Below are positions 3,363 to 16,977 of a DNA stretch of 24,629 nt, piece after piece. Location of the stretch: positions 1 to 24,629 of the IMG/VR virus record IMGVR_UViG_3300032282_006311; one strand, written 5' to 3'. The notes under the pieces were generated by a model. The model searched no databases and was not told where the DNA came from. It was given only the letters and a program-made list of their open reading frames with translations. The stretch comes from a virus. Every line of letters begins with the position of its first letter. Position 1 is the first letter of the stretch. The translations under genes were made by a program, and so were the position numbers.

Positions 3363-3519
3363 TTGCAAATCCTTTGTATTTTTGAGGTGGCTCAATATTA
3401 GCTGATGTTTTATTCAACGAGTAAAATTTTTCTATAGTTTCTCCATAAGAAAAGGGCCTGCTTAGAAGCCCTTCCTTATTTAAAAAATCTAGAAACTTAA
3501 CGAGTAATTTTTCATTCAT
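3328..3519 (-). CDS. Small protein downstream of ssb, unknown function
   Basis: 63 residues, not recognised. It is Lys-rich, begins MNEKLLVKFLDFLNKEGLLS and ends KKKNTFGQ; the first third is probably helical. The ATG shares its A with the ssb stop codon (TAATG), so it is very likely translated by re-initiation after ssb. Its 3' end overlaps the start of the next glycosyltransferase. The tight coupling to ssb suggests a replication accessory role, but that is inference from position only. Confidence 0.6.
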   Translation of the reverse strand: MNEKLLVKFLDFLNKEGLLSRPFSYGETIEKFYSLNKTSANIEPPQKYKGFAIGEKKKNTFGQ

Positions 3520-3932
3520 TAGAATGGGATGTCTTGTAAAGCCGCTTCAGATTTTCCTTTTGACTTTGGTTTTGATTCTGAAACTGGTTTTGACTCTGTG
3601 TCTTTCTTTCCATTCATAAACTCAAAGTCTTGAATAGCAACTAGTATTTTACTGCGCTTTTCTCCATCTTTTGTTTCCCAATTCTCTTGCTTAAGATGCC
3701 CCTCCATTAGGATTGGATCGCCTTTCTTAAGGTATTCAGAAATGACAGAAGCTCTTGCTCCCCACATTTCTGCATCAATATATGTGCTCTCTTCTTTCTT
3801 TTCACCCGACTTTGTGGTGAATTTGCGATTTATAGCGACTCTAAATCTAACAACATTTGAGTCACCAACTGACTTTAGTTCAGGATCAGATACAAGATTT
3901 GCTGCGACGATAACTTTATTAAAATTTGCCAT
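3519..3932 (-). CDS. ssb: Single-stranded DNA-binding protein
   Basis: 137 residues with one OB fold, close to the size of small bacterial and phage SSBs. It starts MANFNKVIVAANLVSDPELK, followed by VVRFRVAINRKF and the STYIDAEMWGARA strand containing the conserved aromatic. Then come YLKKGDPILMEGHL and a Lys/Ser-rich flexible tail (about residues 112-130). It ends in DIPF, the acidic/Phe tip through which bacterial SSBs recruit partners. It would coat single-stranded DNA at the phage fork and in recombination. It follows the C-terminal half of the polymerase after a 41-base gap, the largest in the window, which contains a TATAAT. Confidence 0.95.
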   Translation of the reverse strand: MANFNKVIVAANLVSDPELKSVGDSNVVRFRVAINRKFTTKSGEKKEESTYIDAEMWGARASVISEYLKKGDPILMEGHLKQENWETKDGEKRSKILVAIQDFEFMNGKKDTESKPVSESKPKSKGKSEAALQDIPF

Positions 3933-3948
3933 ATATGTCTCGTGATTG

Positions 3949-3954
3949 ATTATA
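3949..3954 (-). promoter_or_regulatory. Possible -10 box (TATAAT) upstream of ssb
   Basis: A perfect TATAAT on the minus strand in the longest gap of the window (3933-3973), ending 16 bases before the ssb ATG. No convincing -35 box is visible 16-18 bases upstream (CTAAAG there). A weak GAG lies between it and the start codon. The box may be chance in AT-rich DNA. Confidence 0.25.
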
Positions 3955-3973
3955 GTATTTTAAATGCGTTTCT

Positions 3974-5494
3974 TTAGTTGATTTTTATAGTTTCTACAGA
4001 CCATCCAAACCCAGTGCCATTCAATTTTAGCATGCAGTACGCACCCTCTGAAATTACATTTTTCAATTTTTGATACTGCTCTGGAAAACAAACAACGTTT
4101 ATCGTTCCAGTATTATCAGAAATAGTTATTTGACACATTTCTTGACCTGGATTCTTGCCCTTTTTTGTGGTTGTTGGTTTGAGTTTTGTTATTTTAGCTG
4201 TCAACACAGCAGAAAGCTTTTTGTTATTCTTAGCTTTATTAAAGCAATCCTTACAAGACCAGTCATCCTCAGTATTTACATTATGATCATAGCTAAAGGC
4301 AAAACCCATCAAATCCTTTTCGGCGGAACTCTTAACCATAGCAGAATCACTAGCGAGTAGGTTTATTGAGTTCGCCTCGGATATAACTATTTCTTTTCTC
4401 TTCTTTACAGACTTGGATTCGGCGCAAAGTCTTACCGCATCTAAAAGATTCGATCCAGTTGATTGATCATTCAATTGTTGAAAAACAAATTCTATTTCCT
4501 TAGCTGTTAATTGCTTCAGCATCAAATAAATGCTCAGCATCGTTGTTCTTGAAAGACCATATTCATCGCAAGCTCCGCAGTTTATAAGGCTTTCTGTAGC
4601 CAATGAACGTATCTTATACTCTTCTGATGCGAAATGAAGTTTCAAAAGCTGTATGAAGTTTTTAGGTCTTGTTTTTATAATAGCGATTGCATCCGTATCT
4701 CCAACTTGCTTGATATGTGAAAGGCCATAGATTATTTTGTCCTGTTTAATGCAAAAGTCATTTTCTGATTTTGACATTGATGGAGGCTCAATGTTTATGC
4801 CTAACATACGACCTTCATTGATCAGATCCTGTATTTCTTCCCTAGGCTTCTGCTTAGCCTTACTGTAAGTAAGATATACGCAATAGAATTCTAAAGGAAA
4901 ATTTTCCTTTAGATAGGCTGTTTTATAAGCCCAAAGCGCGTATTTTTTAGCATGAGCATCATTAAAAGCATATCTTCCAGCTCCTTCAATTAATGAAAAA
5001 AGCTGCTCTGCCATATCGCTAGACCTGCCGTTTCTTAAGCAGCCAGCTATAAACCTATCCTTTAGGTCAATAATAATCTTTTGGTCTTTTTTGCCGATAC
5101 CTTTTCTTAGTTTATCGACAATAACCAAACGCTCTAGATATGGCATATCCTTCCAAGCGATATCGCCACCGAACTTCATCAACTGTTCTTGGTAAATTAA
5201 TACCCCTAAAGTTGGTGATAGTATGGAATTAACCGTCTCATCATTATAATCAGGTTTTTCTGAAAGTCCGTTTTTGACTTTTGAATACGTCTCAGTCATG
5301 CCTGACTCTAGACATGCGGGTCTAATTAATGAAATTACAGCGCTAAGCTCATTGATGTTTGACGGCTTAATTGTCGCAGACCACTTTTTACCAAGATCGC
5401 TTTCTAGCTGAAAGACTCCTATGGTGTGTCCGTTTTGGATTAGTCTCCAAGTCTTATCGTTCTTAAGTGAAAGGTTATTTGTATCGAATTTCAT
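3974..5494 (-). CDS. dnaE: DNA polymerase III alpha subunit (DnaE), C-terminal half: fingers to OB domain
   Basis: 506 residues matching the part of DnaE after the palm. In order: GVFQLES (26-32), SLIRPACLESGM (55-66), LGVLIYQEQLM (96-106), LRKGIGKKD (129-137), YAFNDAHAKKYALWAY (175-190), AYLKENFPLEFY (193-204), LINCGACDEYGLSR, the MGFAFSYDHN segment, and an OB fold in the last 80 residues (AVLTAKITKL to the end). The catalytic aspartates are absent; they lie in the gene at 10594-12459. Its first residues align from the linker before the fingers (FDTNNLSLKNDKTWRLIQ), so the two genes together make a complete polymerase. I see no clear QxxLF-type clamp-binding motif in the region where E. coli DnaE has one. 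The ATG overlaps the exonuclease stop as ATGA. Confidence 0.93.
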   Translation of the reverse strand: MKFDTNNLSLKNDKTWRLIQNGHTIGVFQLESDLGKKWSATIKPSNINELSAVISLIRPACLESGMTETYSKVKNGLSEKPDYNDETVNSILSPTLGVLIYQEQLMKFGGDIAWKDMPYLERLVIVDKLRKGIGKKDQKIIIDLKDRFIAGCLRNGRSSDMAEQLFSLIEGAGRYAFNDAHAKKYALWAYKTAYLKENFPLEFYCVYLTYSKAKQKPREEIQDLINEGRMLGINIEPPSMSKSENDFCIKQDKIIYGLSHIKQVGDTDAIAIIKTRPKNFIQLLKLHFASEEYKIRSLATESLINCGACDEYGLSRTTMLSIYLMLKQLTAKEIEFVFQQLNDQSTGSNLLDAVRLCAESKSVKKRKEIVISEANSINLLASDSAMVKSSAEKDLMGFAFSYDHNVNTEDDWSCKDCFNKAKNNKKLSAVLTAKITKLKPTTTKKGKNPGQEMCQITISDNTGTINVVCFPEQYQKLKNVISEGAYCMLKLNGTGFGWSVETIKIN

Positions 5495-6135
5495 TGTGTA
5501 ACTTGCGCCTGGCTGGTATTGATTTTAGGTCTGATTTTTACCATGAACTTCATGTATCTTTGAAACATCTTTTTTGTGATTTCAACGTCTTCTGACGCAT
5601 CATGATTGGATGTTGCTCTGCTTAGACCCATAAGTTCGGCATATGTATCCATTTTATTGTTTTTCAAACCATCTCTACCAAATATAGAAAACATTAGAGG
5701 CATCATGTCTATTTGGATATTTGACCAAGGCGAATCTTCGTCTAGATCTAGCAACTTATGCTCCGCCATATGATGCCTAATGAATGGTATGTCAAAATTA
5801 ATGATGTTAAAACCAACTAGAATAGGCGCTGTCCAAAACTTTTTTGTTGGATTCATTGAGTCAATATACTCTTTGAATTTTCTCATGGCAACCTTTGGAT
5901 GCAATCCGTCTTTATTTGCAGCGTTCCAAAGAGAATCACCTATAACAGCAAGAGCCTCTTTACTGGCCTCATTCGGCTTCTGCGGTTTTATTAGTATGGT
6001 AAACTTGCCATTTTCTATCTCTGTGTAGTCAGAGTATTTTAAAGCTGTGGCGGCTATTTGAACTATTTCCGAATTTTTCGGGTTCAAGCCGCTTGTTTCT
6101 ATATCAAAAACAATGAAATTTTTGTTGTTTGCCAC
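5491..6135 (-). CDS. DEDDh 3'-5' exonuclease (DnaQ-like proofreading candidate)
   Basis: 214 residues with all five acid/His positions of the DnaQ family: D11 and E13 in FDIETSGL, D115 in GFNIINFDIPFI, and H178 and D183 in NHDASEDVEI. It would remove mispaired 3' ends. It is immediately upstream of, and ATGA-coupled to, the C-terminal half of DnaE, so it is the natural proofreading partner of the split polymerase. The start is GTG at 6135, which gives the MANNKNFIVFDIET N-terminus expected for the family; no strong Shine-Dalgarno is visible. Other DnaQ-like roles, such as RNase T-like trimming, are possible but less likely given the neighbour. Confidence 0.9.
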   Translation of the reverse strand: MANNKNFIVFDIETSGLNPKNSEIVQIAATALKYSDYTEIENGKFTILIKPQKPNEASKEALAVIGDSLWNAANKDGLHPKVAMRKFKEYIDSMNPTKKFWTAPILVGFNIINFDIPFIRHHMAEHKLLDLDEDSPWSNIQIDMMPLMFSIFGRDGLKNNKMDTYAELMGLSRATSNHDASEDVEITKKMFQRYMKFMVKIRPKINTSQAQVTQ

Positions 6136-6143
6136 GCCATATT

Positions 6144-6755
6144 CTAGGCTTCAAGAAATGATGTTTCAACTTTCTTTGGTAAGGAGTTAAATGATCTTCT
6201 AAGCGATCCACCGCTAGCAGCTCTTTGTTTTGCCCCTATTTTAAAATCCCATTTTTTGGTCTTTAGTGTCATCCAATAAGTATAAAGAGTAGCTGAAGCG
6301 TGTTCTGAATATCTTTTTATGTCTATTGGCAGTCCGTACTCCTTAATGAGTTTAACAGCTCTTCTTTCAGCGTTAAGTTCACAGGCAATCATTTTCTTAG
6401 TGTAAGAAATTAAATCTTTATTTTTAACATCAACTTCATCTTTGATCCATTGGCAAACAACATTTTGAACGCTTCCATATTTTTCGTGACCGCAGTTTTT
6501 GTATGCATAGTCGCCGTCAATCCATTGTAGTACATGAGCAAATTCATGGACTAACGTTGAAAGAAAATCGGATTCATTTAATCCAATTCCACAGTGCAGT
6601 AATTTTTCATCTTCATCAAAATATCCAGCGACTTTAAAATTAAAAGGCGTCATCTTAACAAGTCTTCCTCGGCCAATTTTTACCTTTACGCCATTTTCTT
6701 TGCACGTTTTTCTTACATACTTCAGAAAGTCTTTAACAGCCTTAGAAGTCTTCAT
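6144..6755 (-). CDS. HExxH zinc metallopeptidase-like protein
   Basis: 203 residues. STLVHEFAHVLQWIDG contains the HExxH zinc site (H70, E71, H74). A downstream helix, ACELNAERRAVKLIKEY, offers E126 or E130 as third ligand, as in SprT- and gluzincin-like phage proteins. The C-terminus is basic (KQRAASGGSLRRSF). There is no signal peptide, so it probably acts in the cytoplasm or virion; the substrate is unknown. The gene is transcribed away from the plus-strand island across a 30-base gap that holds a 10-base palindrome, and is followed after 8 bases by the exonuclease. Confidence 0.75.
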   Translation of the reverse strand: MKTSKAVKDFLKYVRKTCKENGVKVKIGRGRLVKMTPFNFKVAGYFDEDEKLLHCGIGLNESDFLSTLVHEFAHVLQWIDGDYAYKNCGHEKYGSVQNVVCQWIKDEVDVKNKDLISYTKKMIACELNAERRAVKLIKEYGLPIDIKRYSEHASATLYTYWMTLKTKKWDFKIGAKQRAASGGSLRRSFNSLPKKVETSFLEA

Positions 6756-6759
6756 ACAT

Positions 6760-6769
6760 GTGTATACAC
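6760..6769. promoter_or_regulatory. Perfect palindrome GTGTATACAC in the only divergent gap
   Basis: The 30 bases between the metallopeptidase start (6755, minus) and the first plus-strand gene (6786) contain the self-complementary GTGTATACAC. On the minus strand it reads GTG-TATACA, then 5 bases, then ATG, the same arrangement found before three other minus genes. On the plus strand the same TATACA lies 17 bases before ATG 6786, leaving room for a TAGG Shine-Dalgarno. One element could therefore serve as -10 box for both directions, or as an operator. Confidence 0.5.
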
Positions 6770-6785
6770 CTTGTAGGTTCGCAAA

Positions 6786-7052
6786 ATGTCCTTGAAACGA
6801 GCAATCAATAAACTACTCAAGCACACCAAATCCAGCTATAAGGGCTTTAAAATTGGTGATACAGTTGTTAATACAAATACAAAATGTATGCACTACGGAA
6901 GCATGGGAGAGGTTGTTAAAATAGAGGAGTTGCCAAACAATTCTGGATATTTAGTTCACTATCATGTCACTAATTATGGCGCTAATTTTAAACCAGGCGA
7001 TATTTTGACAAAGACAGAAGACCAATTAGCCATGGGTATTTACAATGAATAA
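6786..7052 (+). CDS. Small basic protein, first gene of plus-strand island, unknown function
   Basis: 88 residues. It has a basic N-terminus (MSLKRAINKLLKHTKSSYKG) followed by a short beta-rich part (FKIGDTVVNTNTKCMHYGSM, GEVVKIEELPNNSGYLVHYH). The pattern of GD-V-N near a GxVVKI turn is reminiscent of small SH3/KOW-like barrels, but this is only fold-level similarity. A TAGG lies about 9 bases before the ATG. It overlaps the next gene by 8 bases. No family is recognised. Confidence 0.7.
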   Translation: MSLKRAINKLLKHTKSSYKGFKIGDTVVNTNTKCMHYGSMGEVVKIEELPNNSGYLVHYHVTNYGANFKPGDILTKTEDQLAMGIYNE

Positions 7053-7374
7053 TACAAAATCAGCAGTATGGACAACAAAATATAAAAACGATTTACCAGA
7101 CTCGGCCTTCATGCATATAGAGTCTGGTGGCAAAAAAGACTCCGAAGGGAAAACAACCCCAAGATCTTTAAGACATTTCCCATACAAAGACGCCGATGGT
7201 AAGGTAGATATAATACATGTTAGAAACGCAATTGCAAGAATTCCTCAATCAAAACTATCAGCTCAGTTGAAAGCTAGTCTTCAGGCAAAAGCTCGTTCTA
7301 TTTTGGCTAAACTTTATAAGTCTGGAAAGGCTTTTATAAACAAGATTCTATCTAAGGATTTTAGACATGGATAA
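7045..7374 (+). CDS. Phage head-associated conserved module (SLRHFP domain), stand-alone
   Basis: 109 residues. The central stretch runs NDLPDSAFMHIESGGKKDSE, then GKTTPRSLRHFPYKDADGK, then VRNAIARIPQ and an Ala/Lys-rich helix. This combination of LPDSaF, PRSLRHfP and hvRNAlarI is one I know as a conserved segment attached to or next to prohead proteases and scaffold-type proteins in many tailed phages. Here it stands alone. The family placement is from memory of the motif, so the exact domain name is not asserted. Its neighbour downstream is another head-region-type module, which supports a morphogenesis link. Confidence 0.65.
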   Translation: MNNTKSAVWTTKYKNDLPDSAFMHIESGGKKDSEGKTTPRSLRHFPYKDADGKVDIIHVRNAIARIPQSKLSAQLKASLQAKARSILAKLYKSGKAFINKILSKDFRHG

Positions 7375-7699
7375 TAAAAAGGTGACCTTAAATAAACCAA
7401 GACGAATTGGAAAAGGCGAGCCTGGTTATGGTAAAAAGAAATTTGTAGTTTATGTTAAGAACGACAAAGGTAATGTTGTTCGTGTTACTTTTGGTGACCC
7501 AAAAATGGAAATCAAAAGAGACAATCCGGGTAGAAGAAAAAATTTCAGATCTAGACACAGCTGTGACGACAATCCTGGACCAAAATGGAAGGCTAGGTAT
7601 TGGTCTTGCAAGATGTGGGAAAGTAAGAAGAGCGTAACAGACTATACATCCGGACGCTACAATAAATTTGTAGACCATATCAATAAGCAGGCTAAATGA
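7367..7699 (+). CDS. Conserved phage protein with RHSCDD...YWSCKMW motif
   Basis: 110 residues. KKKFVVYVKNDKGNVVRVTFG, then a basic stretch with RRKNFRSRHSCDD, then KARYWSCKMWESKKSVTDYT. The two cysteines (RHSC and YWSCKMW) and flanking basic residues are a conserved phage module often found beside, or fused to, capsid-maturation genes. Its biochemical role is not known to me. It has an excellent Shine-Dalgarno (AAGGA, 8-base spacer), overlaps the upstream gene by 8 bases and the downstream holin-like gene by ATGA. Confidence 0.7.
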   Translation: MDNKKVTLNKPRRIGKGEPGYGKKKFVVYVKNDKGNVVRVTFGDPKMEIKRDNPGRRKNFRSRHSCDDNPGPKWKARYWSCKMWESKKSVTDYTSGRYNKFVDHINKQAK

Positions 7700-8127
7700 T
7701 ACCTATTGAATTACTATCAATGCTAGGTGGCAGCGTAACTGGATTCGTATTCAGATATCTAGCAGAAAAAAGAGAAAATGATAAGCAGATGTTTGAGCGA
7801 TTGATAACGCTCAATGAGCAAAAAGAAAAAACAATAGAGTCTGCTGTTAAAAGAGTCCCAATAGATGTCGGAAAAGGCGTTAGGCAATTAATAGTTATAG
7901 CTGTTTTATTTGCTACGCTAGCTGCCCCATTCATACTGCCATTTTTCGGAATACCGACATTTGTTGAAATAGAAGCTTCGACTCCAGACATGTCTATTAT
8001 ACCATCTGTAACAAAAACATTTTTTGTAGAATTAAATGGTTATTTATACGCAGAGGAACATAGACAAGTGCTGCTTAGCATAGTTGGGTTTTACTTTGGG
8101 AGCGCTGCAGCGTCTAATAAATCATGA
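7696..8127 (+). CDS. Holin-like membrane protein
   Basis: 143 residues. A short hydrophobic N-terminus (LLSMLGGSVTGFVF, 6-19) is followed by a charged helix (AEKRENDKQMFERLITLNEQ). A clear membrane segment follows at about 64-86 (RQLIVIAVLFATLAAPFILP), and a second hydrophobic stretch at 124-141 (VLLSIVGFYFGSAAASN). Small size, two to three membrane segments and a position before a short lipoprotein fit the three-segment holin families of phages. No endolysin is in the window, so the lysis assignment is inference. It is ATGA-coupled on both sides. Confidence 0.5.
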   Translation: MIPIELLSMLGGSVTGFVFRYLAEKRENDKQMFERLITLNEQKEKTIESAVKRVPIDVGKGVRQLIVIAVLFATLAAPFILPFFGIPTFVEIEASTPDMSIIPSVTKTFFVELNGYLYAEEHRQVLLSIVGFYFGSAAASNKS

Positions 8128-8342
8128 AGTCTATTATAATATTGGTATCTTTAATTATTGGCGGATGCTCTATAACACCTCAGATTATATCGCCAAAAAA
8201 ACAAGAAATGCAACAGCCAACACCAAGGGTTGTTGTTAAGGAAGGCGGATGGGGTTGGATTTTATGGTATATTCCAATAGCGTCAATAGCCATAATGTGG
8301 GGATATAAAGAGATAATAAAGAAGAAAGACAAGAAAGATTAA
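8124..8342 (+). CDS. Short lipoprotein with C-terminal membrane segment (spanin-like candidate)
   Basis: 72 residues. The N-terminal signal MKSIIILVSLIIGGCS has an acceptable lipobox (I-G-G-C, Cys15). A Pro/Gln/Lys linker of about 28 residues follows, then a hydrophobic segment WGWILWYIPIASIAIMWGY and a basic tail (KEIIKKKDKKD). Lipobox plus C-terminal transmembrane segment is the architecture of unimolecular spanins, which link outer and inner membrane at lysis. The linker here is far shorter than in known examples, so it could instead be a small inner-membrane protein. It is translationally coupled to the holin-like gene, and its stop overlaps the convergent glycosyltransferase stop. Confidence 0.55.
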   Translation: MKSIIILVSLIIGGCSITPQIISPKKQEMQQPTPRVVVKEGGWGWILWYIPIASIAIMWGYKEIIKKKDKKD

Positions 8343-9388
8343 AAGTCTAAAAGTCTAAACCAATCTCTCAAGGCCTGTCTGTTATGTTCATTTAGCAAAG
8401 ATGTATTTTCACTTGTTATCTTATGTGAATGAACTGTCCTTCCATCTGACTCTTGATTAAAAAACGCATCATTCATTGCTTCTAGTATCTTTTTATCGTT
8501 ATGCACATCTGATCGGCAATACTCTGTCACGAATTTAATTTCATTTGAAACAACTATTGGAACTTCGCAGTATACAAAATCTGCAGCAGTTATATTGAAT
8601 GTTTCGCTGAATGATATCTGCATTCCAAAGTTCATAGCCCTAACCAGTTGTAAAAAATCCTGGTGTTCATACCATGGATGTTCTATCAATTTATGATTTG
8701 TGTTAGAAAAAATTTCCCTTAGATTTTTCAGTATTGGAGTTGCGACAGATTGTTCATGTTCAGAAACATTAACATGAAAATTCAAACTCTTATCTAATGA
8801 ATCTGCAAAAAGTATGCTAAGGATTGACTGCTGAACAGTGTTTTTAAGCGGCCTTAAAGCTCCAAAACAACCAATATTCATAGTGTTATGTTCTGTATAA
8901 TCAAACGATAAACTTGACTCTTTTTCGTCTGGCATGTATATGTTTGGACTGTAGGAAACATACTTATATAATGGTCTTAGATATTGAAATAGCTTTTGAT
9001 TATTGCAACTAAGAGATACTTTTATCTTGTCCTTCCTTAGCTGCATATACTCATTCATCCATTCAAAAGCCATACCTTCATTCGATAAAAATGGAATCAT
9101 TGAGTGGAGTCTAATAACCCATTCAACATTTGGATGAAGTTGAGCTAGGACTCGTATTTTAGAAGGAACAACCCATAACGCTTCTATGAAGCAAATTGTT
9201 GGCTTAAACTCAGCTACCTCGGCGTCTATATAGTTATTATCTATTACCTGTACAACTTTGGCTGGTATATTATGTTTAGATAACGCCCTTACGACAAAGT
9301 CGCACGAGTTATATAAACCGTAGCTCTTTGTTGGAGAACCATAGTTATATCTTTCCTTTACTATGAAAAGTAGGCGTTCGGTTGGCAT
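8339..9388 (-). CDS. Glycosyltransferase-like protein (GT-B fold)
   Basis: 349 residues. The N-terminal part has LFIVKERYNYGSPTKSYGLY and IEALWVVPSKIRVLAQLHPN. The C-terminal part begins MNIGCFGALRPLKNTVQQ, the usual strand-loop of the donor domain, and contains SETFNITAADFVYCEVPIVV. That segment aligns with the EX7E loop, with Asp as the second acid. It differs from the other glycosyltransferases here, so it is probably a separate family member. It is preceded by the GTG-TATTTA element 5 bases before the ATG, has no visible Shine-Dalgarno, and converges tail-to-tail with the plus-strand island with a 4-base overlap. No terminator hairpin is seen at the junction. Confidence 0.7.
   Translation of the reverse strand: MPTERLLFIVKERYNYGSPTKSYGLYNSCDFVVRALSKHNIPAKVVQVIDNNYIDAEVAEFKPTICFIEALWVVPSKIRVLAQLHPNVEWVIRLHSMIPFLSNEGMAFEWMNEYMQLRKDKIKVSLSCNNQKLFQYLRPLYKYVSYSPNIYMPDEKESSLSFDYTEHNTMNIGCFGALRPLKNTVQQSILSILFADSLDKSLNFHVNVSEHEQSVATPILKNLREIFSNTNHKLIEHPWYEHQDFLQLVRAMNFGMQISFSETFNITAADFVYCEVPIVVSNEIKFVTEYCRSDVHNDKKILEAMNDAFFNQESDGRTVHSHKITSENTSLLNEHNRQALRDWFRLLDF
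8341..8356. repeat. Tandem 8-base repeat at the convergent gene junction
   Basis: AAAAGTCT occurs twice head to tail, directly after the stop of the plus-strand lipoprotein and inside the last codons of the minus-strand glycosyltransferase (RLLDF-stop). It is probably incidental, but it lies exactly where two transcription units meet and no hairpin terminator is present. Confidence 0.5.
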
Positions 9389-9393
9389 GTATC

Positions 9394-9402
9394 TAAATAC
9401 AC
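9394..9402 (-). promoter_or_regulatory. GTG-TATTTA promoter-like element before the glycosyltransferase
   Basis: On the minus strand GTGTATTTA is followed by 5 bases (GATAC) and the ATG at 9388. If TATTTA is a -10 box, transcription would begin at or next to the start codon. No Shine-Dalgarno and no clear -35 box are present in the 27-base gap. The same element and spacing precede the genes starting at 6755 and 21702. Confidence 0.45.
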
Positions 9403-9415
9403 GTAAAACAAGTTA

Positions 9416-10423
9416 TTAGGTTGGTAGTTTTTTCCTTAAAGCGGCTCTAAGAGCCTTTATTCTATCACTAGCCATAACTGCCTCAGTACCTGTACCAACG
9501 CATCCGGCGGCAGAAGCCTGATCTTCCATTAGCTGCCTAGCTTCATCTTCACCGATATTGATTCCTATCCTAGCTAATAAAGCTATGATAGCGGTCATAG
9601 CGACTGGCAACCCGGAGCATCCAACGAATGTTCCTCCGCAGGCCGCTAAAGCAGCAGCTATTATTGCCGCTATGGCGGCTAGTACAACTATCGCGTACCC
9701 CACATTCTGTATCTGGTCTCTGTACTTCTCCCACAAGTTTTGCTCTATTTTATCCTTGTTCGGCTTGCATGTCTCTGAATCAGGAGAAGATCCGCCGCTT
9801 GGAATTAAAACGGGTCTAGAGTCAGGATTGGCTCCGTTAAGAATCCAATCTAAAATCTTCTTAATAAGCTCTAAAATTTGCTCGTCAGAAAGACCTAGAG
9901 ATTTAAAATATACTTTCAAATATGATTCTAATAGAGCTAATATTGCGGATCTAGCCCAGTCGCAACCAGATAAAACACTAAGAATAGTGCTTATTTCTCC
10001 TATAGCGTCGATTAATCCAGGAATTGCATCTGGATGACCGTTAGACCAATTGTGTAAGACATCAGTTAATCTTTTTATCGCAATACAGCATGGGGCTGTT
10101 GATCCTTTTGGGCATCTTCCCTTGAGCATAAGTAGAAGATCTGCTATTTTTTTTGAAGTCCATCCGTTATTCTTTAGCCATCTTATAAAAACCCAAAATA
10201 GAGCTACCCCTCCTAGGGTGTTTATAACCTCCTGGAAATTTAGCTGCCACCATTTTCTACCGTCTTCGGTGTTTGGATCTAGTCCTTGCTCTATAACTCG
10301 AACTAACTCGTCAGCCCATGGATCATTAGGCGGAGTTTGAATTTGATCATTTACATAAGGGCCTTCTTGAAAGGCTAAAAGCTTATTTAAGTCCTCTAAC
10401 TTTTTTCTGATGTCTCTATTCAT
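9416..10423 (-). CDS. Ala-rich membrane-segment protein, unknown function
   Basis: 335 residues, no family recognised. The N-terminal third is soluble and charged with NTLGGVALFWVFIRWLKNNG as a hydrophobic stretch (about 69-88). The middle has a Cys pair (STAPCCIAIKRL) and helices. The C-terminal third holds a very Ala/Ile-rich segment (YAIVVLAAIAAIIAAALAA) followed by a second hydrophobic stretch (GLPVAMTAIIALLARIGI). It ends in a basic tail (KALRAALRKKLPT). This mix of soluble helices and small-residue-rich membrane segments is seen in internal virion or ejection proteins, but that is a guess. It is preceded by GTG-TATTTA with a 7-base spacer and no Shine-Dalgarno. Confidence 0.75.
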   Translation of the reverse strand: MNRDIRKKLEDLNKLLAFQEGPYVNDQIQTPPNDPWADELVRVIEQGLDPNTEDGRKWWQLNFQEVINTLGGVALFWVFIRWLKNNGWTSKKIADLLLMLKGRCPKGSTAPCCIAIKRLTDVLHNWSNGHPDAIPGLIDAIGEISTILSVLSGCDWARSAILALLESYLKVYFKSLGLSDEQILELIKKILDWILNGANPDSRPVLIPSGGSSPDSETCKPNKDKIEQNLWEKYRDQIQNVGYAIVVLAAIAAIIAAALAACGGTFVGCSGLPVAMTAIIALLARIGINIGEDEARQLMEDQASAAGCVGTGTEAVMASDRIKALRAALRKKLPT

Positions 10424-10604
10424 GACTATTTAAATACACATCTTGACTCATTGTTAAATAATATCTATCTTTTAGTCTTAACATGGTATCTATTATGATA
10501 TTTATGTCATTTATATTTGAGACAATGATTTTTTCGTCTTGTTGATTCATTAGAACTGAATCACAGGCTTCTGTGATTGTAATAGTAGCACCTTTAATCG
10601 CCAT
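10416..10604 (-). CDS. Small protein following the DnaE N-terminal half, unknown function
   Basis: 62 residues from ATG 10604, which has GGAG 9 bases upstream; the longer frame from TTG 10619 has no such site. Sequence MAIKGATITITEACDSVLMN, then a beta/alpha pattern and a C-terminal RLKDRYYLTMSQDVYLNSHE. It overlaps the dnaE N-half stop by 11 bases, so it is probably coupled to it. It contains no intein motif and does not extend the polymerase. A perfect 8-bp inverted repeat lies inside its 5' end. Function unknown. Confidence 0.6.
   Translation of the reverse strand: MAIKGATITITEACDSVLMNQQDEKIIVSNINDINIIIDTMLRLKDRYYLTMSQDVYLNSHE
10431..10439 (-). promoter_or_regulatory. GTG-TATTTA promoter-like element before the Ala-rich membrane protein
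   Basis: The minus strand reads GTGTATTTA, then AATAGTC (7 bases), then ATG 10423. It sits inside the last codons of the 62-residue gene. No Shine-Dalgarno is visible for the downstream gene. It is the same nonamer as at 9394-9402. Confidence 0.42.
10559..10578. other. Perfect inverted repeat, 8-bp stem with 4-base loop
   Basis: AATCACAG-GCTT-CTGTGATT forms a perfect stem-loop 16-35 bases past the stop codon of the DnaE N-terminal half (minus strand), inside the next small gene. There is no T-run on the 3' side, so it is not a typical intrinsic terminator. It could stabilise an mRNA end, bind a dimeric protein, or be chance within codons. Confidence 0.45.
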
Positions 10605-12459
10605 GGGATAAAACTCCAAATCTTATCTCATTCATTTTAAAATTAAGCATTCTTTCTATCTGAAAGATCTTTTCTAGAGCAGAAACTCCAAGGATATCAA
10701 ACTTTACCCCGCCTAGAGTTTCTATATCAGAACCCTCTACATCTATCACCATTTGTCCTAGCTTTGGTGAGTAAGTCATAGGAAAGTGATTGGATAATAA
10801 TTTATCGCTAATAATTATACCGGCCGCGTGAACGCTTTCGTTTTTAGGTAGCTTTTCGATTCTAATGGCAAAATCAAACGCTTCTTTGTATTGCTCGTAG
10901 TATTTCGCAACATCTTTTATATTATCAATGTTCCATCTTATAATACCGTAGGATGGATCTTCTTCTTGTATCTCGCTGAGTTCATCAGAGATCTTGGCTT
11001 CTTCAACAAAAAGTTTTGTAATTTCATTTGCTACATCAAAGTAATTTGCTACAGGTTTTAGTATTCTAAAAGCCTCTTTTATAGCACCCTTACCTTTAAA
11101 TCTAGAGTGTGTAATGATGTGAGCAACAGAATCAAAGCCATATTTTTCTCTAATATATTGTATAACTTCTGCTCTAACAGATGGTGGTAAATCCATGTCT
11201 ATATCAGGAAGAGATGCGTTAGTTGCTGTATTTCGACCTTCATTATAAAATCTTTCAAACGGCAATTCTCTTTCACTAGAATATGCTAGCGTTGGATCTG
11301 GTAAAATAGGATCAATTGATGAAACGCCTATTAGGTATGAAATGATAGATCCAGACGATGAACCTCTACTATCGGCTGGATATCCAAAAGACCTGATAAA
11401 ATCTACGATGTCCTTTACGATAAGAAAATATCCAGAGATTTTTGCTTGCTTAAACACTTCAAGCTCATGCTTTATTCTATTTAAGTACACCGCTCTTAAA
11501 TCTTTACTTGATTCTATCTTTGGCAGAATTTTTTCTGAGAATCCCTTTCTGCATATATTCTTTAGATATTCATCTTGATCTGAGATGATATGATCTTTTA
11601 TTTTAAATTGAGGCAGCATTGGTCTTTCCTCAATTGAAAACGATTCAACCATATCTGATATTGAATTTGTTAACTCTCCATCAGGTATCTCCTTCATCAA
11701 GTGACAAAAACTAAATCTATCGTCAAATATTCTTTTGTCATTTATATCAGACTCGATTCGTTCTGAATCGTTTATAATTAACTTATGAATATCTAGATCC
11801 TTTTGGGTTAGATAGTGTATATTATTAGCTGGAATTGCATTTGGAAAATTTCTCTTTATTTCTGATCCAAGAACTTTCAGGCATGGAAGTTTTGAATAAT
11901 CAAAATACAGAAATACCTCAGAAAATACTTTTTCATATTTTCCAATAACATCTAATATGCACTTCTTAAAATCCTTTTTGAGAAGCTCTTTGCACTCATC
12001 TTCACTATCTGAGTTATAAGCCATGTTAGGATTTACATATGCTGAATCAAAAATCTCGCTTTTGAGATCCCCTATTAGGCAGATAATACCGGACGAGTAT
12101 TGGTGTAGTTCGTTTAGATATGACTTTGGATTACCGTCGTTAGCAACACGCTCTTTTGAACGGGCGTTAGATACTATCGTTAGGATATTCTTATATCCAT
12201 TTTTATTTTTCGCTAGAAGCGTTATTCTACCAATAAATGAGTCATTATGCCACACGTCAAGCTCAACACCAAATATAGGCTTTATTCCTTTTGACTTACA
12301 CGCCTTATAGAAAGGAACAAGTCCCTTTATGTTGTTATGATCTGTAATAGCGCATGAAGATCCTCCATGCTCCTTTACAAAAGCGACGTATTCTCCGATG
12401 TCAAGAGTGCTGTCTAGTAGTGACCAACATGTGTGAACGTGTAGCGGTGTGTAATTCAT
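10594..12459 (-). CDS. dnaE: DNA polymerase III alpha subunit (DnaE), N-terminal half: PHP, palm and thumb
   Basis: 621 residues from ATG 12459. The frame opens at TTG 12471, but the ATG gives the expected MNYTPLHVH start. The PHP domain keeps H7, H9, D16, H41 (ITDHNNIKG) and E66 (GVELDV); the late D-x-H appears as N-x-H (NNIHYL), so metal binding is uncertain. The palm follows: PADSRGSSSGSIISYL, LPDIDMDLPP with D421 and D423, and KFDILG with D588, the three catalytic aspartates of the family. The gene ends 33 residues after the last aspartate (D588), in the linker between palm and fingers. The fingers, OB and C-terminal parts are in the separate gene at 3974-5494. The start lies one base after the upstream nuclease stop. 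Confidence 0.93.
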   Translation of the reverse strand: MNYTPLHVHTCWSLLDSTLDIGEYVAFVKEHGGSSCAITDHNNIKGLVPFYKACKSKGIKPIFGVELDVWHNDSFIGRITLLAKNKNGYKNILTIVSNARSKERVANDGNPKSYLNELHQYSSGIICLIGDLKSEIFDSAYVNPNMAYNSDSEDECKELLKKDFKKCILDVIGKYEKVFSEVFLYFDYSKLPCLKVLGSEIKRNFPNAIPANNIHYLTQKDLDIHKLIINDSERIESDINDKRIFDDRFSFCHLMKEIPDGELTNSISDMVESFSIEERPMLPQFKIKDHIISDQDEYLKNICRKGFSEKILPKIESSKDLRAVYLNRIKHELEVFKQAKISGYFLIVKDIVDFIRSFGYPADSRGSSSGSIISYLIGVSSIDPILPDPTLAYSSERELPFERFYNEGRNTATNASLPDIDMDLPPSVRAEVIQYIREKYGFDSVAHIITHSRFKGKGAIKEAFRILKPVANYFDVANEITKLFVEEAKISDELSEIQEEDPSYGIIRWNIDNIKDVAKYYEQYKEAFDFAIRIEKLPKNESVHAAGIIISDKLLSNHFPMTYSPKLGQMVIDVEGSDIETLGGVKFDILGVSALEKIFQIERMLNFKMNEIRFGVLSHGD

Positions 12460-12460
12460 A

Positions 12461-13447
12461 TTATTCTTCAAACGTGTTTCTTCTATTGCTGGTAAGCTTC
12501 ATTTTTTCTTCGGAACGAGATTGCTTGATCTTACTTATTTGTTGAATGGTGTTGTCTATGCCGTTTCCAACCATGTAAGAATGCACTGTATCGCATATGC
12601 TGCAGCCAGCTGCGGTCATTGTTTTTCCAAAGTGGCATACGCTTTTGCATTTCCATTTTTCTCCAGCCTTGCTCTCCTTGATTCTAGTCGGAAGCTGGTT
12701 CCACTTGATCGCATTAAAGGTATTCTTTATGATATCTATGGTTTGTTGCCGTTGTTCGTTATCGAAGGCTACTGTAAAAGGGCCTCCGTCATTTATGAAA
12801 TGAATGGTCAATAACCTGTGTTTATATTGCGGAAAAAGCATAGAACAAGCAAAATCATACATTCTTAACTGTATATCTTTTGATTGAAGATAGTCGTATT
12901 CTTTCACTTCTCCGCTATTCCAGCATTTTCTAGACCCGGTTTTCCAATCAACTATTTCTATAGTATCCTTGTCAATTTCAGTTATAAGATCTATTGTTCC
13001 GCGAATTTCATAATTGCCTTTTTCAACAGATCCATTGACTATGTCATAGTATTCATATTTAAACCCTTCTGAAACTAAAGGTATCTTGAATTGCTTTTCA
13101 GTGAACAAAACCTTAAGTTTTCTAGGATCGTACTGAGTACCAAGTACCTTTTCAATGCTCTGCAAGCAGAATTTCTTGTCAGCTGGCTTCATGGCAATTG
13201 TTGGATTTTCATTGGTATATCTGTTCCAGCAAATATCTAGCAATTTGACATGGTCAGTGATTATGCCAAAGTCTCTTCCTGTCTTGCTTCCCTTTGCCAT
13301 AAGCTCCAACACATGGTGAACTATTGTTCCTAAAAGAGCTTTTTTCCCGCTTTTAGATGGTATCTCTAGTATTTGTTCCATGAAAAACTGGAACTCACAC
13401 CCTTTATACGAGTTTATTGAAGAGGCTCTTAGGAATTTGATATTCAT
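12461..13447 (-). CDS. PD-(D/E)XK exonuclease, Cas4/RecB-like with probable iron-sulfur cysteines
   Basis: 328 residues. Motifs in order: C17 near the N-terminus (SYKGCEFQF), LGTIVHHVLELM (H44, E48), RGTIDLI (D153), IEIVDWKTG (D167, K169) and DIQLRMYDFA (Q193, Y197). A C-terminal cysteine set follows (C267, C271, C282, C285). This order, with one early and several late cysteines around the nuclease core, is that of Cas4, AddB and phage RecB-like nucleases holding a 4Fe-4S cluster. It probably resects DNA ends for recombination. It sits between the unknown gene at 13404-13868 (44-base overlap) and the DnaE N-terminal half. No cas genes or repeats are near, so a phage recombination role is preferred over CRISPR adaptation. 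Confidence 0.85.
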   Translation of the reverse strand: MNIKFLRASSINSYKGCEFQFFMEQILEIPSKSGKKALLGTIVHHVLELMAKGSKTGRDFGIITDHVKLLDICWNRYTNENPTIAMKPADKKFCLQSIEKVLGTQYDPRKLKVLFTEKQFKIPLVSEGFKYEYYDIVNGSVEKGNYEIRGTIDLITEIDKDTIEIVDWKTGSRKCWNSGEVKEYDYLQSKDIQLRMYDFACSMLFPQYKHRLLTIHFINDGGPFTVAFDNEQRQQTIDIIKNTFNAIKWNQLPTRIKESKAGEKWKCKSVCHFGKTMTAAGCSICDTVHSYMVGNGIDNTIQQISKIKQSRSEEKMKLTSNRRNTFEE

Positions 13448-13868: not shown

Positions 13869-14503
13869 ATATGCAATTCTATTATCTTTTTAAGCTCAGA
13901 GTTTTTTTCCTCCATACTCATATTAGCGTTATCTAATAAGTGGAGTTTTGCTATAGATTTGAAATCATATGCATCTAAAGCTGTTTCGCTTTCATGTGAA
14001 TTATTCAAAACATTTCTAGTCAGCCTGATGACTATTGGGTCATGCTTAATGAAGAAATCTAATTCATTTGGAAATCTTGCATCTGATATGATTGCGCATC
14101 CAATTTGGTCTTTGATTATCTGGTTTAAAATAGACCTAGACCAACAGTCTTGATCAATTTTTCTAAATATATCAGTCCCCAAAACCTGCATCAACTCTCT
14201 AGCCGTCATGTAGTCATCTATGGTTTTTGGATACTTATCTAGCATTAGCTTTGCTAGTTTACCTCTGCATAAAGGTAAATTTTTCCATTTTATTAATGTG
14301 TTTGTATCTTTTTCAGCATTAGATCCCCAACATTGATCTTCTGACAGACCAAACATTTCTGAGCAAATTCTCTTCAATGGCTCTGCAAGTGGATATAGCT
14401 TAGACTTTATGCCCTTAGATTCCATCAGTTTTTTAATAAAAATCGCGGATGTATCTTTACCGCTTTGGGCTTTACCAGTTAATATTATTATTTTGGGTGT
14501 CAT
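13865..14503 (-). CDS. Deoxynucleoside monophosphate kinase
   Basis: 212 residues, similar in size to the T4 gp1-type enzyme. The P-loop is GKAQSGKDT (10-18), with the GKD form typical of phage dNMP kinases. Later motifs are LKRICSEMFGL, RELMQVLGTDIFR and the IISDARFPNELDF segment, followed by VIRLTRN, the usual lid and substrate strands. It phosphorylates dNMPs to dNDPs for dNTP supply, complementing the ribonucleotide reductase and dUTPase also in the window. It has a good Shine-Dalgarno (AAGG) 5 bases before the ATG and overlaps the primase end by 32 bases. Confidence 0.9.
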   Translation of the reverse strand: MTPKIIILTGKAQSGKDTSAIFIKKLMESKGIKSKLYPLAEPLKRICSEMFGLSEDQCWGSNAEKDTNTLIKWKNLPLCRGKLAKLMLDKYPKTIDDYMTARELMQVLGTDIFRKIDQDCWSRSILNQIIKDQIGCAIISDARFPNELDFFIKHDPIVIRLTRNVLNNSHESETALDAYDFKSIAKLHLLDNANMSMEEKNSELKKIIELHI

Positions 14504-15551
14504 GTCGCCTTCTTAGGATTGATAGTTGAGGTTTAATAGTGTCATTATAGTCTTGTTTTGATAAAGATCCCGGATCTTTGCCATCAGGTAGCATTAATTT
14601 CTCTACTTTTGTTTCAGATCCAAACGCATGCTTAGCTTTTGTATATCCATTTTGCCCAGCGTCATCTGAGTCAAAAGCTATGGCTACGCATTTAGTCATT
14701 CCTTTAAGCGTATCCATCTGCTTATTCGATATGGAGCATCCATAAGAAGCGACGCAATTTTTCACTCCAAACTCCCACATCCTCCAAAGATCAAAAGGCC
14801 CTTCAACAACAACAGCAAATCCAACTCTTTTTATGTAATTGCACGCCTCGTGAATATTATATAATTCAATGCTTTTATTAAGACCTTTAGGGTAATGTCT
14901 CCACTTGCTAAAAAGGCCTGCAAATTTCTCGTCTAAAGAAAACCACGATGGGTGATACGCATTGGTTAGTTTATTTTTTTCGTAGACGCTTCTTCCTGTA
15001 AATCCAATCAATAGACCGTCAATATTCCTTATTGGAATCATTAGTCTATGGTGGTATAGTTTTGATTCCTTTTTTGGCACACCGCATTGAAAATGCAATA
15101 GAGTTTCATCTTTGAATCCCCTATCTGATATGGAGGAAAAATCCTTAACTAATCCGTCTATATGATGCTCTCCTATTGGTTCATTAGTTTGTTTTTTTTC
15201 CAACTGCTTATCTGCTGGAACATATCCAGCTGATATTTCTGGATCATTTATTACAGCATTAGCCCAGTCAACTGCTTCAGTGAAGGAGCAGTTTTTAATT
15301 GCCTTTATAAGTCCTATGATGTCATTTCCGTATTTTGAATGGCATCCATGGGTGAAACATGACCAACAGCATCTGTTTCTATCATATGAAAACGCCATCG
15401 GATTATCTCCATCATGTATTGGGCATGATTGCTGCACACCTTTGCTTGTTATGTTGGAAAACCCAAGCTTCTCTAGAATTAGGCTATCAAATGAGCAAAT
15501 GATTTTTCTTTGTTCAGAAGTCAAACTCATCTTCATCTTCCGATGGGTCAT
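14472..15551 (-). CDS. DNA primase, CHC2 zinc finger plus TOPRIM
   Basis: 359 residues from the longest start. The zinc-binding N-terminus is QQSCPIHDGDNP and NRCCWSCFTHGC (C43, H46, C62, C65). Then comes HRLMIPIRNIDGLLIGFTGR, the core strand that precedes TOPRIM in DnaG proteins, and TOPRIM itself: VVVEGPFD (E250) and AFDSDDAGQ (D294, D296). There is no helicase domain, so it acts with the separate DnaB. It would make RNA primers at the fork. The start is uncertain: ATG 15551, 15536 and 15530 are all in frame, and 15530 is best placed behind GGAAG. It overlaps the helicase gene end, implying coupling. Confidence 0.93.
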   Translation of the reverse strand: MTHRKMKMSLTSEQRKIICSFDSLILEKLGFSNITSKGVQQSCPIHDGDNPMAFSYDRNRCCWSCFTHGCHSKYGNDIIGLIKAIKNCSFTEAVDWANAVINDPEISAGYVPADKQLEKKQTNEPIGEHHIDGLVKDFSSISDRGFKDETLLHFQCGVPKKESKLYHHRLMIPIRNIDGLLIGFTGRSVYEKNKLTNAYHPSWFSLDEKFAGLFSKWRHYPKGLNKSIELYNIHEACNYIKRVGFAVVVEGPFDLWRMWEFGVKNCVASYGCSISNKQMDTLKGMTKCVAIAFDSDDAGQNGYTKAKHAFGSETKVEKLMLPDGKDPGSLSKQDYNDTIKPQLSILRRRHDTQNNNINW

Positions 15552-16977
15552 TTCCGTCTTGATCTAAAACCTCAAAATTAAACTTGCCTTCGGTGAACTT
15601 GGATTGCTCCATATTAGATATGATGTTTATGTATTCAGATGATGAATCCATACCCTTGCCGTATCTAGTCTCTATAACAACCATTTTTCTATCGCCGTTC
15701 GCTTTGCTGTCACCAGCAGCTACATCTTCGTCTGTTTTCTTCTTTAGATACGCTAGACTTGAACAAAGCCATAGAATTCTATCGCTTCCTGATACAACGC
15801 TAGTATCTTCTTTATTTATGCCGTCTCGATTAAGCTGAACTGTTGCCAATACAGGTACATCATTTTTAACTGCAAAATTATGTAGCTTGGTTATGAAGTC
15901 TCCAAGATATTGATATTCTTGAAAATCTCCTAGTTCGGCTAAATCCATTGTTTTAAGATAGTCTAAAACTATTAGACAATCCCTGGATGATCCATCCTTA
16001 TTTTTTCCAACAATGCTTGACAGCCATCTTCTGCAGATGGAGAATATCTCCTGTGGCTTCATACCGGCTACACTTATGTGATAAAATGGCTTTTTAGCGA
16101 ATTCCTTAGAGGCCTCCTTAAGCATTAGAGAATGTCTTTCATTGGTGCTAAATGCGCCAGTCTCAATTTCATTCTGCGGAACTCCAGAGCATAGAGAAGC
16201 CCATTTAATTGACTGGGTTTCTTTCTTCATCTCAGTATCTAGATACAGCACGGGGATATCTGCAAAAGTCACATTTTTAGCAATATTCAAGCAGAACGTG
16301 CTCTTTCCAACCTTAGGTCTAGCTCCAACTACATTAACGGTTCCTCTTCTAAATCCTCCGCCAATACACTCATCGTATCTAGGGAATCCAGTGGGAATAC
16401 CCACCATAGTTACTGGATTTTTTGCAACATAATCTAGATGCTCTATCGCAAATTCACTGATATTAGTGAAGTCGTTTTCTCTTTTGATTTCAGGAATAAA
16501 ATTAAAGATTGACTCTTCTACCGAAGAAATTATATCAACTACATCTTCATCTCCGTTTGCTTTAGAGACTAGCGAGTGGGCGTCGCGTATCTTTTTAGAT
16601 AGCTTTCGTATTATATGCCAATACTTTATTCTTTTAGCTGATATTTGGACTTCTGAAATAGAGACGTCGCCATCCTTGCAGCTTTTCACTATTTCTGAAA
16701 AAAGCTCTTTATTAACCTCATCCCAAAAACCAGAATTTCTAGCCGCTGCGATAACAGCTTCTGGGCTAAGTGAGTCCGCAGTCTCCTTTTCGTATATAGT
16801 TTGAATTGTTTTGAAAATTAGACCATAATTACCATCGCTGAAATATTCAGTATCTAGATCTGTTAAATAGCTATAAAATCCTGGAGATCCAGAGTTCATA
16901 GCATATTTGATTACTGAAAGTTCTGACTCTAAGTCAGATTTATTTTGCGCGGCAGTTGTTACACTTTGCTTTTGCAT
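15514..16977 (-). CDS. dnaB: Replicative DNA helicase, DnaB type
   Basis: 487 residues, the normal length. The N-terminal helical domain covers about 1-160, then the linker, then the RecA-like motor: GIPTGFPRYDECIGGGFRRG (193-212), Walker A GARPKVGKST (218-227), catalytic acid in YLDTEM (249), Walker B CLIVLDY (334-340), and VPVLATVQLNRDG. The last residues are very acidic (PSEDEDEFDF). It would form the hexamer that unwinds the fork and recruits the primase encoded immediately downstream, whose start lies inside this gene's 3' end. The start overlaps the zinc-ribbon protein gene by 38 bases. Confidence 0.95.
   Translation of the reverse strand: MQKQSVTTAAQNKSDLESELSVIKYAMNSGSPGFYSYLTDLDTEYFSDGNYGLIFKTIQTIYEKETADSLSPEAVIAAARNSGFWDEVNKELFSEIVKSCKDGDVSISEVQISAKRIKYWHIIRKLSKKIRDAHSLVSKANGDEDVVDIISSVEESIFNFIPEIKRENDFTNISEFAIEHLDYVAKNPVTMVGIPTGFPRYDECIGGGFRRGTVNVVGARPKVGKSTFCLNIAKNVTFADIPVLYLDTEMKKETQSIKWASLCSGVPQNEIETGAFSTNERHSLMLKEASKEFAKKPFYHISVAGMKPQEIFSICRRWLSSIVGKNKDGSSRDCLIVLDYLKTMDLAELGDFQEYQYLGDFITKLHNFAVKNDVPVLATVQLNRDGINKEDTSVVSGSDRILWLCSSLAYLKKKTDEDVAAGDSKANGDRKMVVIETRYGKGMDSSSEYINIISNMEQSKFTEGKFNFEVLDQDGNDPSEDEDEFDF

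Follow-up and report, generated by a model that had tools for sequence, protein, structure and literature searches.

The window analyzed here, the whole 24,629-nucleotide stretch of virus DNA held as IMG/VR record IMGVR_UViG_3300032282_006311, carries the parts of a DnaE-type (C-family) DNA polymerase in two separate genes, both on the minus strand. The gene of the N-terminal part (N-half; 10594..12459) encodes 621 amino acids from the ATG at 12459, with an alternative start (TTG at 12471) upstream of this ATG in the list of open reading frames (ORFs), and includes PHP, palm, and thumb. The gene of the C-terminal part (C-half; 3974..5494) encodes 506 amino acids and includes fingers, helix-hairpin-helix (HhH), and OB fold. 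At both positions the plus strand is filled with stops. Pfam searches located PHP (residues 6–161) and DNA_pol3_alpha (residues 297–591) in the N-half, and fingers (residues 2–156), HHH_6 (residues 232–318), and OB (residues 445–488) in the C-half, and the Pfam, NCBIfam, and fold matches together revealed that the DnaE-type order of PHP, palm/thumb, fingers, HhH, and OB runs on across the two halves. Full-length models are divided between them: PHROG 405, a model of full-length phage DnaE, is covered at positions 42–615 by the N-half and 624–1054 by the C-half, without overlap; the bacterial DnaE model PRK05673 (1146 positions) is covered at 4–580 and 582–1043; and, by sequence, residues 6–573 and 589–900 of Escherichia coli DnaE are the respective counterparts. 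The three catalytic aspartates (D421, D423, and D588) are invariant across 87 N-halves, and the fingers motifs are conserved across 88 C-halves. An earlier note on this DNA had read it as a DnaE in two genes at these positions, the one with PHP, palm, thumb, and all three aspartates and a stop 33 residues past the last of them (621 − 588 = 33), the other running from the fingers through the OB fold, and each of these points agrees with our results.

Structure prediction yielded confident models for both chains, with a predicted local distance difference test score of 89.6 and a predicted template modeling score of 0.87 for the N-half, and 92.1 and 0.83 for the C-half. The top fold match of both models was the DnaE structure 7pu7 (E value 5.5e-40 for the N-half and 5.4e-23 for the C-half). 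The modeled N-half ends in a helix (residues 593–607) followed by a short disordered tail, and the modeled C-half begins with a few loose residues followed by a helix (residues 13–20). These models place the cut in the loop that connects the last helix on the palm side to the first helix of the fingers, at the start of the Pfam fingers domain. The stretch from the last catalytic aspartate to the FQLE motif totals 59 residues in the window (33 from the N-half, 26 from the C-half), compared with 46–54 in fused DnaEs; thus, no residues have been lost at the cut.

Between the halves lies a gene for a DEDDh 3'-5' exonuclease resembling DnaQ and the exonuclease of PolC (5491..6135, minus strand; 214 amino acids from a GTG), which matches Pfam RNase_T (E value 1.4e-15) and PHROG 192 (polymerase exonuclease subunit), its best NCBIfam match being the PolC exonuclease region. 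This gene, which the earlier note had passed over, directly precedes that of the C-half, and its stop overlaps the C-half start by 4 bases. For comparison, IMG/VR was scanned with single proteins and then with alignments, and the ORFs were surveyed with profile models built in this analysis; each scan covers the best 80 loci, beyond which more distant fused relatives would lie. The halves are separate ORFs in 160 loci, a partly redundant set, and fused in 77 loci, which come from a bacterial-genome scan plus two fused-type records. Removal of near-identical pairs at 97% identity left 96 distinct pairs including the window, that is, 95 relatives. Thus, the window and its 95 distinct relatives all encode in two genes a polymerase that in DnaE-type enzymes is a single polypeptide, and a DEDDh exonuclease ORF sits between the halves in every one of the 95 and in 153 of 153 testable loci. 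Its stop and the C-half start overlap or abut across the relatives (median −4 bases, most often 8 or 4), which suggests that the two genes are translationally coupled. Of 96 C-halves, 30 have a Shine–Dalgarno-like site upstream, as do 39 of 96 N-halves, compared with a background of 9%; this is suggestive only. In compact loci, among them L006 and L020, a RecB-like exonuclease gene is followed by those of N-half, DEDDh exonuclease, C-half, SSB, and glycosyltransferases. Judging from these gene orders, N-half, exonuclease, C-half is the ancestral arrangement, and the gap of 5 kb and the inverted island in the window are later insertions, since it is the subgroup of the window that has inserted extra genes between N-half and exonuclease.

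The split also marks a lineage, as became evident from a tree of 66 polymerases in which the split halves were joined in order (quick search, LG+G4 model, midpoint root). All 33 exonuclease-bearing split phages form one clade with a support of 100 in the Shimodaira–Hasegawa-like approximate likelihood ratio test and a stem of 0.57 changes per column. The fused phage and bacterial DnaEs lie outside the clade, and the quick, midpoint-rooted tree does not fix its exact sister. On this tree, the split arose once in this lineage. Distances between N-halves and between C-halves correlate at 0.95, a value that common descent alone would produce. The split polymerase of Rossellomorea phage phiT1, by contrast, groups with the fused DnaE of Bacillus phage PS1 (support 90); therefore, the linker was probably cut at least twice, and the phiT1 split is probably an independent event. 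Among the matches read from approximately 50,700 phage records, no named phage of the split clade was seen, and the best matches were fused DnaEs, except phiT1 and otherwise fragmented records. Among the matches listed, the closest cultured ones to the polymerase halves have approximately 35% identity or less, and those to the terminase large subunit of a 159-kb relative (L298:124-2124) approximately 26% or less; in the terminase search, Terminase_6N yielded weak terminases and Terminase_6C nothing. By these identities, the collection searched contains no cultured phage close to the split lineage. The suggestion of the earlier note that the split might be conserved in a phage lineage is thus borne out by the 95 distinct relatives and their single clade.

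Two explanations would make the split only apparent. One is a single dnaE interrupted by a frameshift, by an intron spliced out of the RNA, or by an assembly artefact. Some relatives (L073, L106, and L175) are indeed fragmented further, but the same cut with the exonuclease gene inside it recurs in 95 distinct relatives, the gap in the window is 5 kb long with genes on both strands, and an Rfam search of the window and seven relatives matched neither a group I or II intron nor any other family, on which ground the intron was rejected. We consider this explanation scarcely credible, in accordance with the earlier note, which had dismissed a frameshift or assembly break. The other is a split intein that joins the halves after translation, as in cyanobacterial DnaE. 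Split inteins do occur in the lineage at other sites, each adjoining an endonuclease-like ORF. In L073 (1969-5045), a further break, made by a split intein (Intein_splicing E value 2.3e-8, Hint), divides the N-half within the palm ahead of SAAGC, so that the polymerase lies in three genes; the intein C-part precedes SAAGC, and the endonuclease-like ORF is at 3437-4231. In L175 (11970-13780), the C-half is broken in the fingers after FNK by an intein N-part (TIGR01445 intein_Nterm, E value 1e-6) followed by a DUF559-type endonuclease ORF, at a site close to that of the cyanobacterial DnaE intein. At the palm–fingers junction, however, the tails are too short for intein pieces, with 19–34 residues past the last aspartate in the N-halves and 26–71 residues before FQLE in the C-halves, and no intein domain was found in the N-half and C-half of the window or in the 88 C-halves. 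Because the inteins of L073 and L175 match the same models and thus serve as positive controls, an intein at the main junction would have been detected. A junction intein, which the earlier note likewise could not see, was therefore rejected, and we give it next to no credence. The ancestral cut may have originated in a gene fractured by an intein that was lost afterwards.

Both halves bear the marks of genes in use. The ratio of nonsynonymous to synonymous substitution rates is 0.03–0.06 for both in close pairs, and between the window and its nearest relatives synonymous sites are saturated with little amino-acid change. Decay of either half, which the earlier note had named as an observation that would speak against a working split enzyme, was thus looked for and not found; strong purifying selection was found instead. 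The same note had named a full-length DnaE elsewhere in the genome. No such gene was found in 22 related contigs of 120–244 kb, all of which have a single palm domain and a single fingers domain, encoded by separate ORFs; a second contig set agrees in 18 of 18 related contigs, with four contigs common to both sets. A Pfam search, whose known-genome controls behaved as expected, detected PolA and PolB (PF00136) in none of the 22 long contigs.

From these data, the two genes very probably encode the subunits of one replicative C-family polymerase that is assembled non-covalently. The ancestor of a large group of uncultured phages would have split its dnaE once, at the surface loop between palm and fingers, and would have kept the exonuclease gene between the parts from then on. 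The N-half (PHP, palm, and thumb, including the aspartate triad) and the C-half (fingers, HhH, and OB) would each fold on their own, and docking of the two chains at the palm–fingers interface would rebuild a normal DnaE active site. A third subunit, the DEDDh exonuclease, would most likely supply proofreading. That the chains assemble physically, polymerize DNA, and serve as the replicase, and that the exonuclease proofreads, is what we infer from the genes and their predicted structures. A stronger version, which we consider rather unlikely, is that the gene order is conserved because the three proteins form an obligate polymerase core, with the exonuclease also bridging or stabilizing the halves and thereby coupling proofreading to assembly of the active site; if so, the split would be a functional design under selection and not a tolerated accident.

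Several observations weigh against a non-covalently assembled replicase. The beta clamp gene was found in none of the 22 long contigs, and a simple pattern search of the C-halves revealed no conserved clamp-binding-like motif (Q..[LMI][FLY]). The C-half terminates just past the OB fold and is without the tau-binding C-terminal domain of DnaE1, its match to PRK05673 stopping at 1043 of 1146, so that the last hundred or so positions are absent. The statement of the earlier note that no block is missing and none duplicated therefore holds for duplication and for the cut but not for this C-terminal domain. In addition, the completeness of the long contigs is uncertified, and Pfam would overlook any polymerase in them that has diverged too far; the window record itself is a 24.6-kb fragment, so the evidence for a sole polymerase comes from its relatives. 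The undetected clamp gene and tau-binding domain, together with a UvsX-like recombinase and nucleases in the same module, would suit a polymerase for repair or recombination and not for genome replication. We regard this as improbable, because no DNA polymerase other than the split DnaE was detected in contigs of up to 244 kb, and its genes adjoin those of a DnaB-type helicase, a primase, SSB, and a proofreading-type exonuclease. It is still less probable that the halves took separate jobs, for instance as a PHP nuclease and a DNA-binding protein, form no polymerase, and leave replication to the host replicase. The state of the PHP domain, compared by eye, could be cited in its favor: the metal site looks nearly complete in the large clade of relatives, and several ligands appear to be lost in the window subgroup. 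The catalytic aspartates are nevertheless invariant and the fingers motifs conserved, and the pair is retained alongside the genes of exonuclease, primase, helicase, and SSB where no PolA or PolB was found. As for the ligands themselves, the large clade has the H before F/L..LAKN and the D in DAHY, which are R and N in the window subgroup; this replacement suggests, from the residues, that PHP activity was lost there. The DEDDh residues of the exonuclease are kept in the window subgroup (by eye).

Known divided polymerases differ from the present one in distinct ways. The cyanobacterial DnaE is also encoded at two loci, but an intein joins its halves. Its cut lies further into the fingers. Bacterial DnaE1, such as E. 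coli Pol III alpha, shares the domain order and the fold and likewise has its exonuclease as a separate protein (epsilon), but it is one polypeptide with a tau-binding C-terminal domain and a clamp-binding motif. In PolC, the exonuclease resides inside the PHP domain of one polypeptide, whereas here it is a separate gene between the halves. Among phages, Aeromonas phages 25 and 44RR have a split gp43 (43A/43B) of the PolB family, and the phage 25 proteins co-purify and have polymerase activity (PMC2988022), a direct precedent for a working phage polymerase in two pieces. The resemblance is that of a phage replicative polymerase made as two polypeptides, with no intein reported; the differences are the B family and the content of the gap, a seg-type endonuclease or untranslated spacer in place of a proofreading exonuclease gene. 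A minimal split Pol III alpha, predicted to reassemble, was described in group 2.2 jumbo phages (Iyer et al. 2021, PMC7824862) and is also a phage C-family polymerase in two standalone proteins. That version is a minimal core divided into an NTP-binding (nucleoside triphosphate) part and a Mg-/template-binding part, whose genes lie far apart and occur alongside a PolB. The present system has PHP, palm, thumb, fingers, HhH, and OB, carries all aspartates in the N-half, and was found with no PolB; it is not a member of the jumbo-phage type, because that type lacks the other domains, is cut differently, and has PolB. A further parallel is phiT1 (gp20/gp18, 573 + 469 amino acids; PV767480), which is split at the same palm–fingers linker but has only a 49-amino-acid ORF (gp19), and no exonuclease, between the halves. 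Its GenBank annotation gives two "DNA polymerase III subunit alpha" genes.

Other fragmented DnaEs were seen in passing. In Bacillus phage Jayan (L295:2980-6387), DnaE is split inside the palm (410 + 634 amino acids) around a 76-amino-acid ORF; the neighborhood in phage PS1 is similar, with DnaE fused. Alicyclobacillus phage KKP_3916 (L296:360-6974) has DnaE spread over four ORFs, all annotated as hypothetical and possibly separated by introns or endonucleases. In a human fecal phage contig (L291:1535-4953), PHP is in one ORF and the palm onwards in the overlapping next one, which may be a frameshift.

The 5 kb between the halves in the window contain intact genes including an inverted island, as the earlier note had described. 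On the minus strand, 6144..6755 encodes a putative metallopeptidase-like protein (weak DUF6782 match), a lineage-specific insertion in the gap between N-half and exonuclease with no counterpart in the compact loci L006 and L020. The island, five small ORFs on the plus strand (6786..8342), is also lineage-specific: it is present in L002, L004, L009, and L019, partly present in L031/L037, and absent from L006, L008, and the distant loci inspected. It is followed by a minus-strand gene (8339..9388) that, by its ORF and synteny, encodes a 349-amino-acid protein assigned to no family and not part of the polymerase, with counterparts only in L002 and L019 among the loci inspected. The gene that immediately follows the N-half in the window subgroup (9416..10423, minus strand) encodes a 335-amino-acid protein that had no match in Pfam and PHROG and has homologs in L002, L004, L009, and L019. 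Elsewhere the gap is filled differently. In the large-clade loci read, a conserved small ORF of approximately 50–80 amino acids with the pattern FxELxxGxKF...EYxK...CC lies between N-half and exonuclease (L020:9065-9243, L190:7868-8053, L157:7860-8034, and L026:8975-9211). In L139 (8048-10552) and L185 (8071-10662), a protein of approximately 830–860 amino acids is inserted there, with RCC1 repeats in L139 and a counterpart that appears similar by eye in L185. The gap between exonuclease and C-half of L175 (8728-11788) contains DUF1501, DUF1559 (prepilin-like), and ThyX genes. The two DUF proteins are reminiscent of Planctomycetes, so the host may be a planctomycete, or the contig may be chimeric. 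C-halves of the large clade (L020, L024, L026, and L028) have an N-terminal extension of 20–30 residues with CGCxF, perhaps a metal site or docking element, that the window subgroup is without.

The flanking genes belong to a replication module, the first four named here lying on the minus strand. SSB (3519..3932; Pfam SSB E value 4.9e-25) follows the C-half in most relatives. A PD-(D/E)XK exonuclease (12461..13447; PHROG 69), RecB/Cas4-like by eye, directly precedes the N-half in all loci inspected. The primase (14472-15551) and the DnaB-like helicase (15514-16977) were assigned by a match set of PHROG 47 and PHROG 19. The module further encodes the UvsX-like recombinase, a deoxynucleoside monophosphate kinase, dUTPase, and ribonucleotide reductase. 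The last (22373-24298) has approximately 65% identity to adenosylcobalamin-dependent enzymes of Roseobacter phages, far above the identity of the polymerase, which may reflect recent exchange or strong conservation.

Split phage polymerases (PolB and the minimal Pol III alpha), which the earlier note did not mention, and the split-intein DnaE are already known, and within the open-licence literature we found no published account of this split in this lineage. What is new is a two-gene, intein-free DnaE extending from PHP to OB that is the only polymerase detected, occurs throughout a lineage, and has an exonuclease gene fixed in its gap. Annotation models built on full-length DnaE overlook this defining feature of these replisomes. 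For biochemistry and synthetic biology, such a system offers a polymerase that nature has already split. Replicative DnaE is usually treated as one large polypeptide whose palm and fingers move relative to one another. In an entire phage lineage, replication appears to proceed with these two parts on separate chains and without an intein that rejoins them, which makes this lineage a natural test of how tight the linkage between palm and fingers must be.

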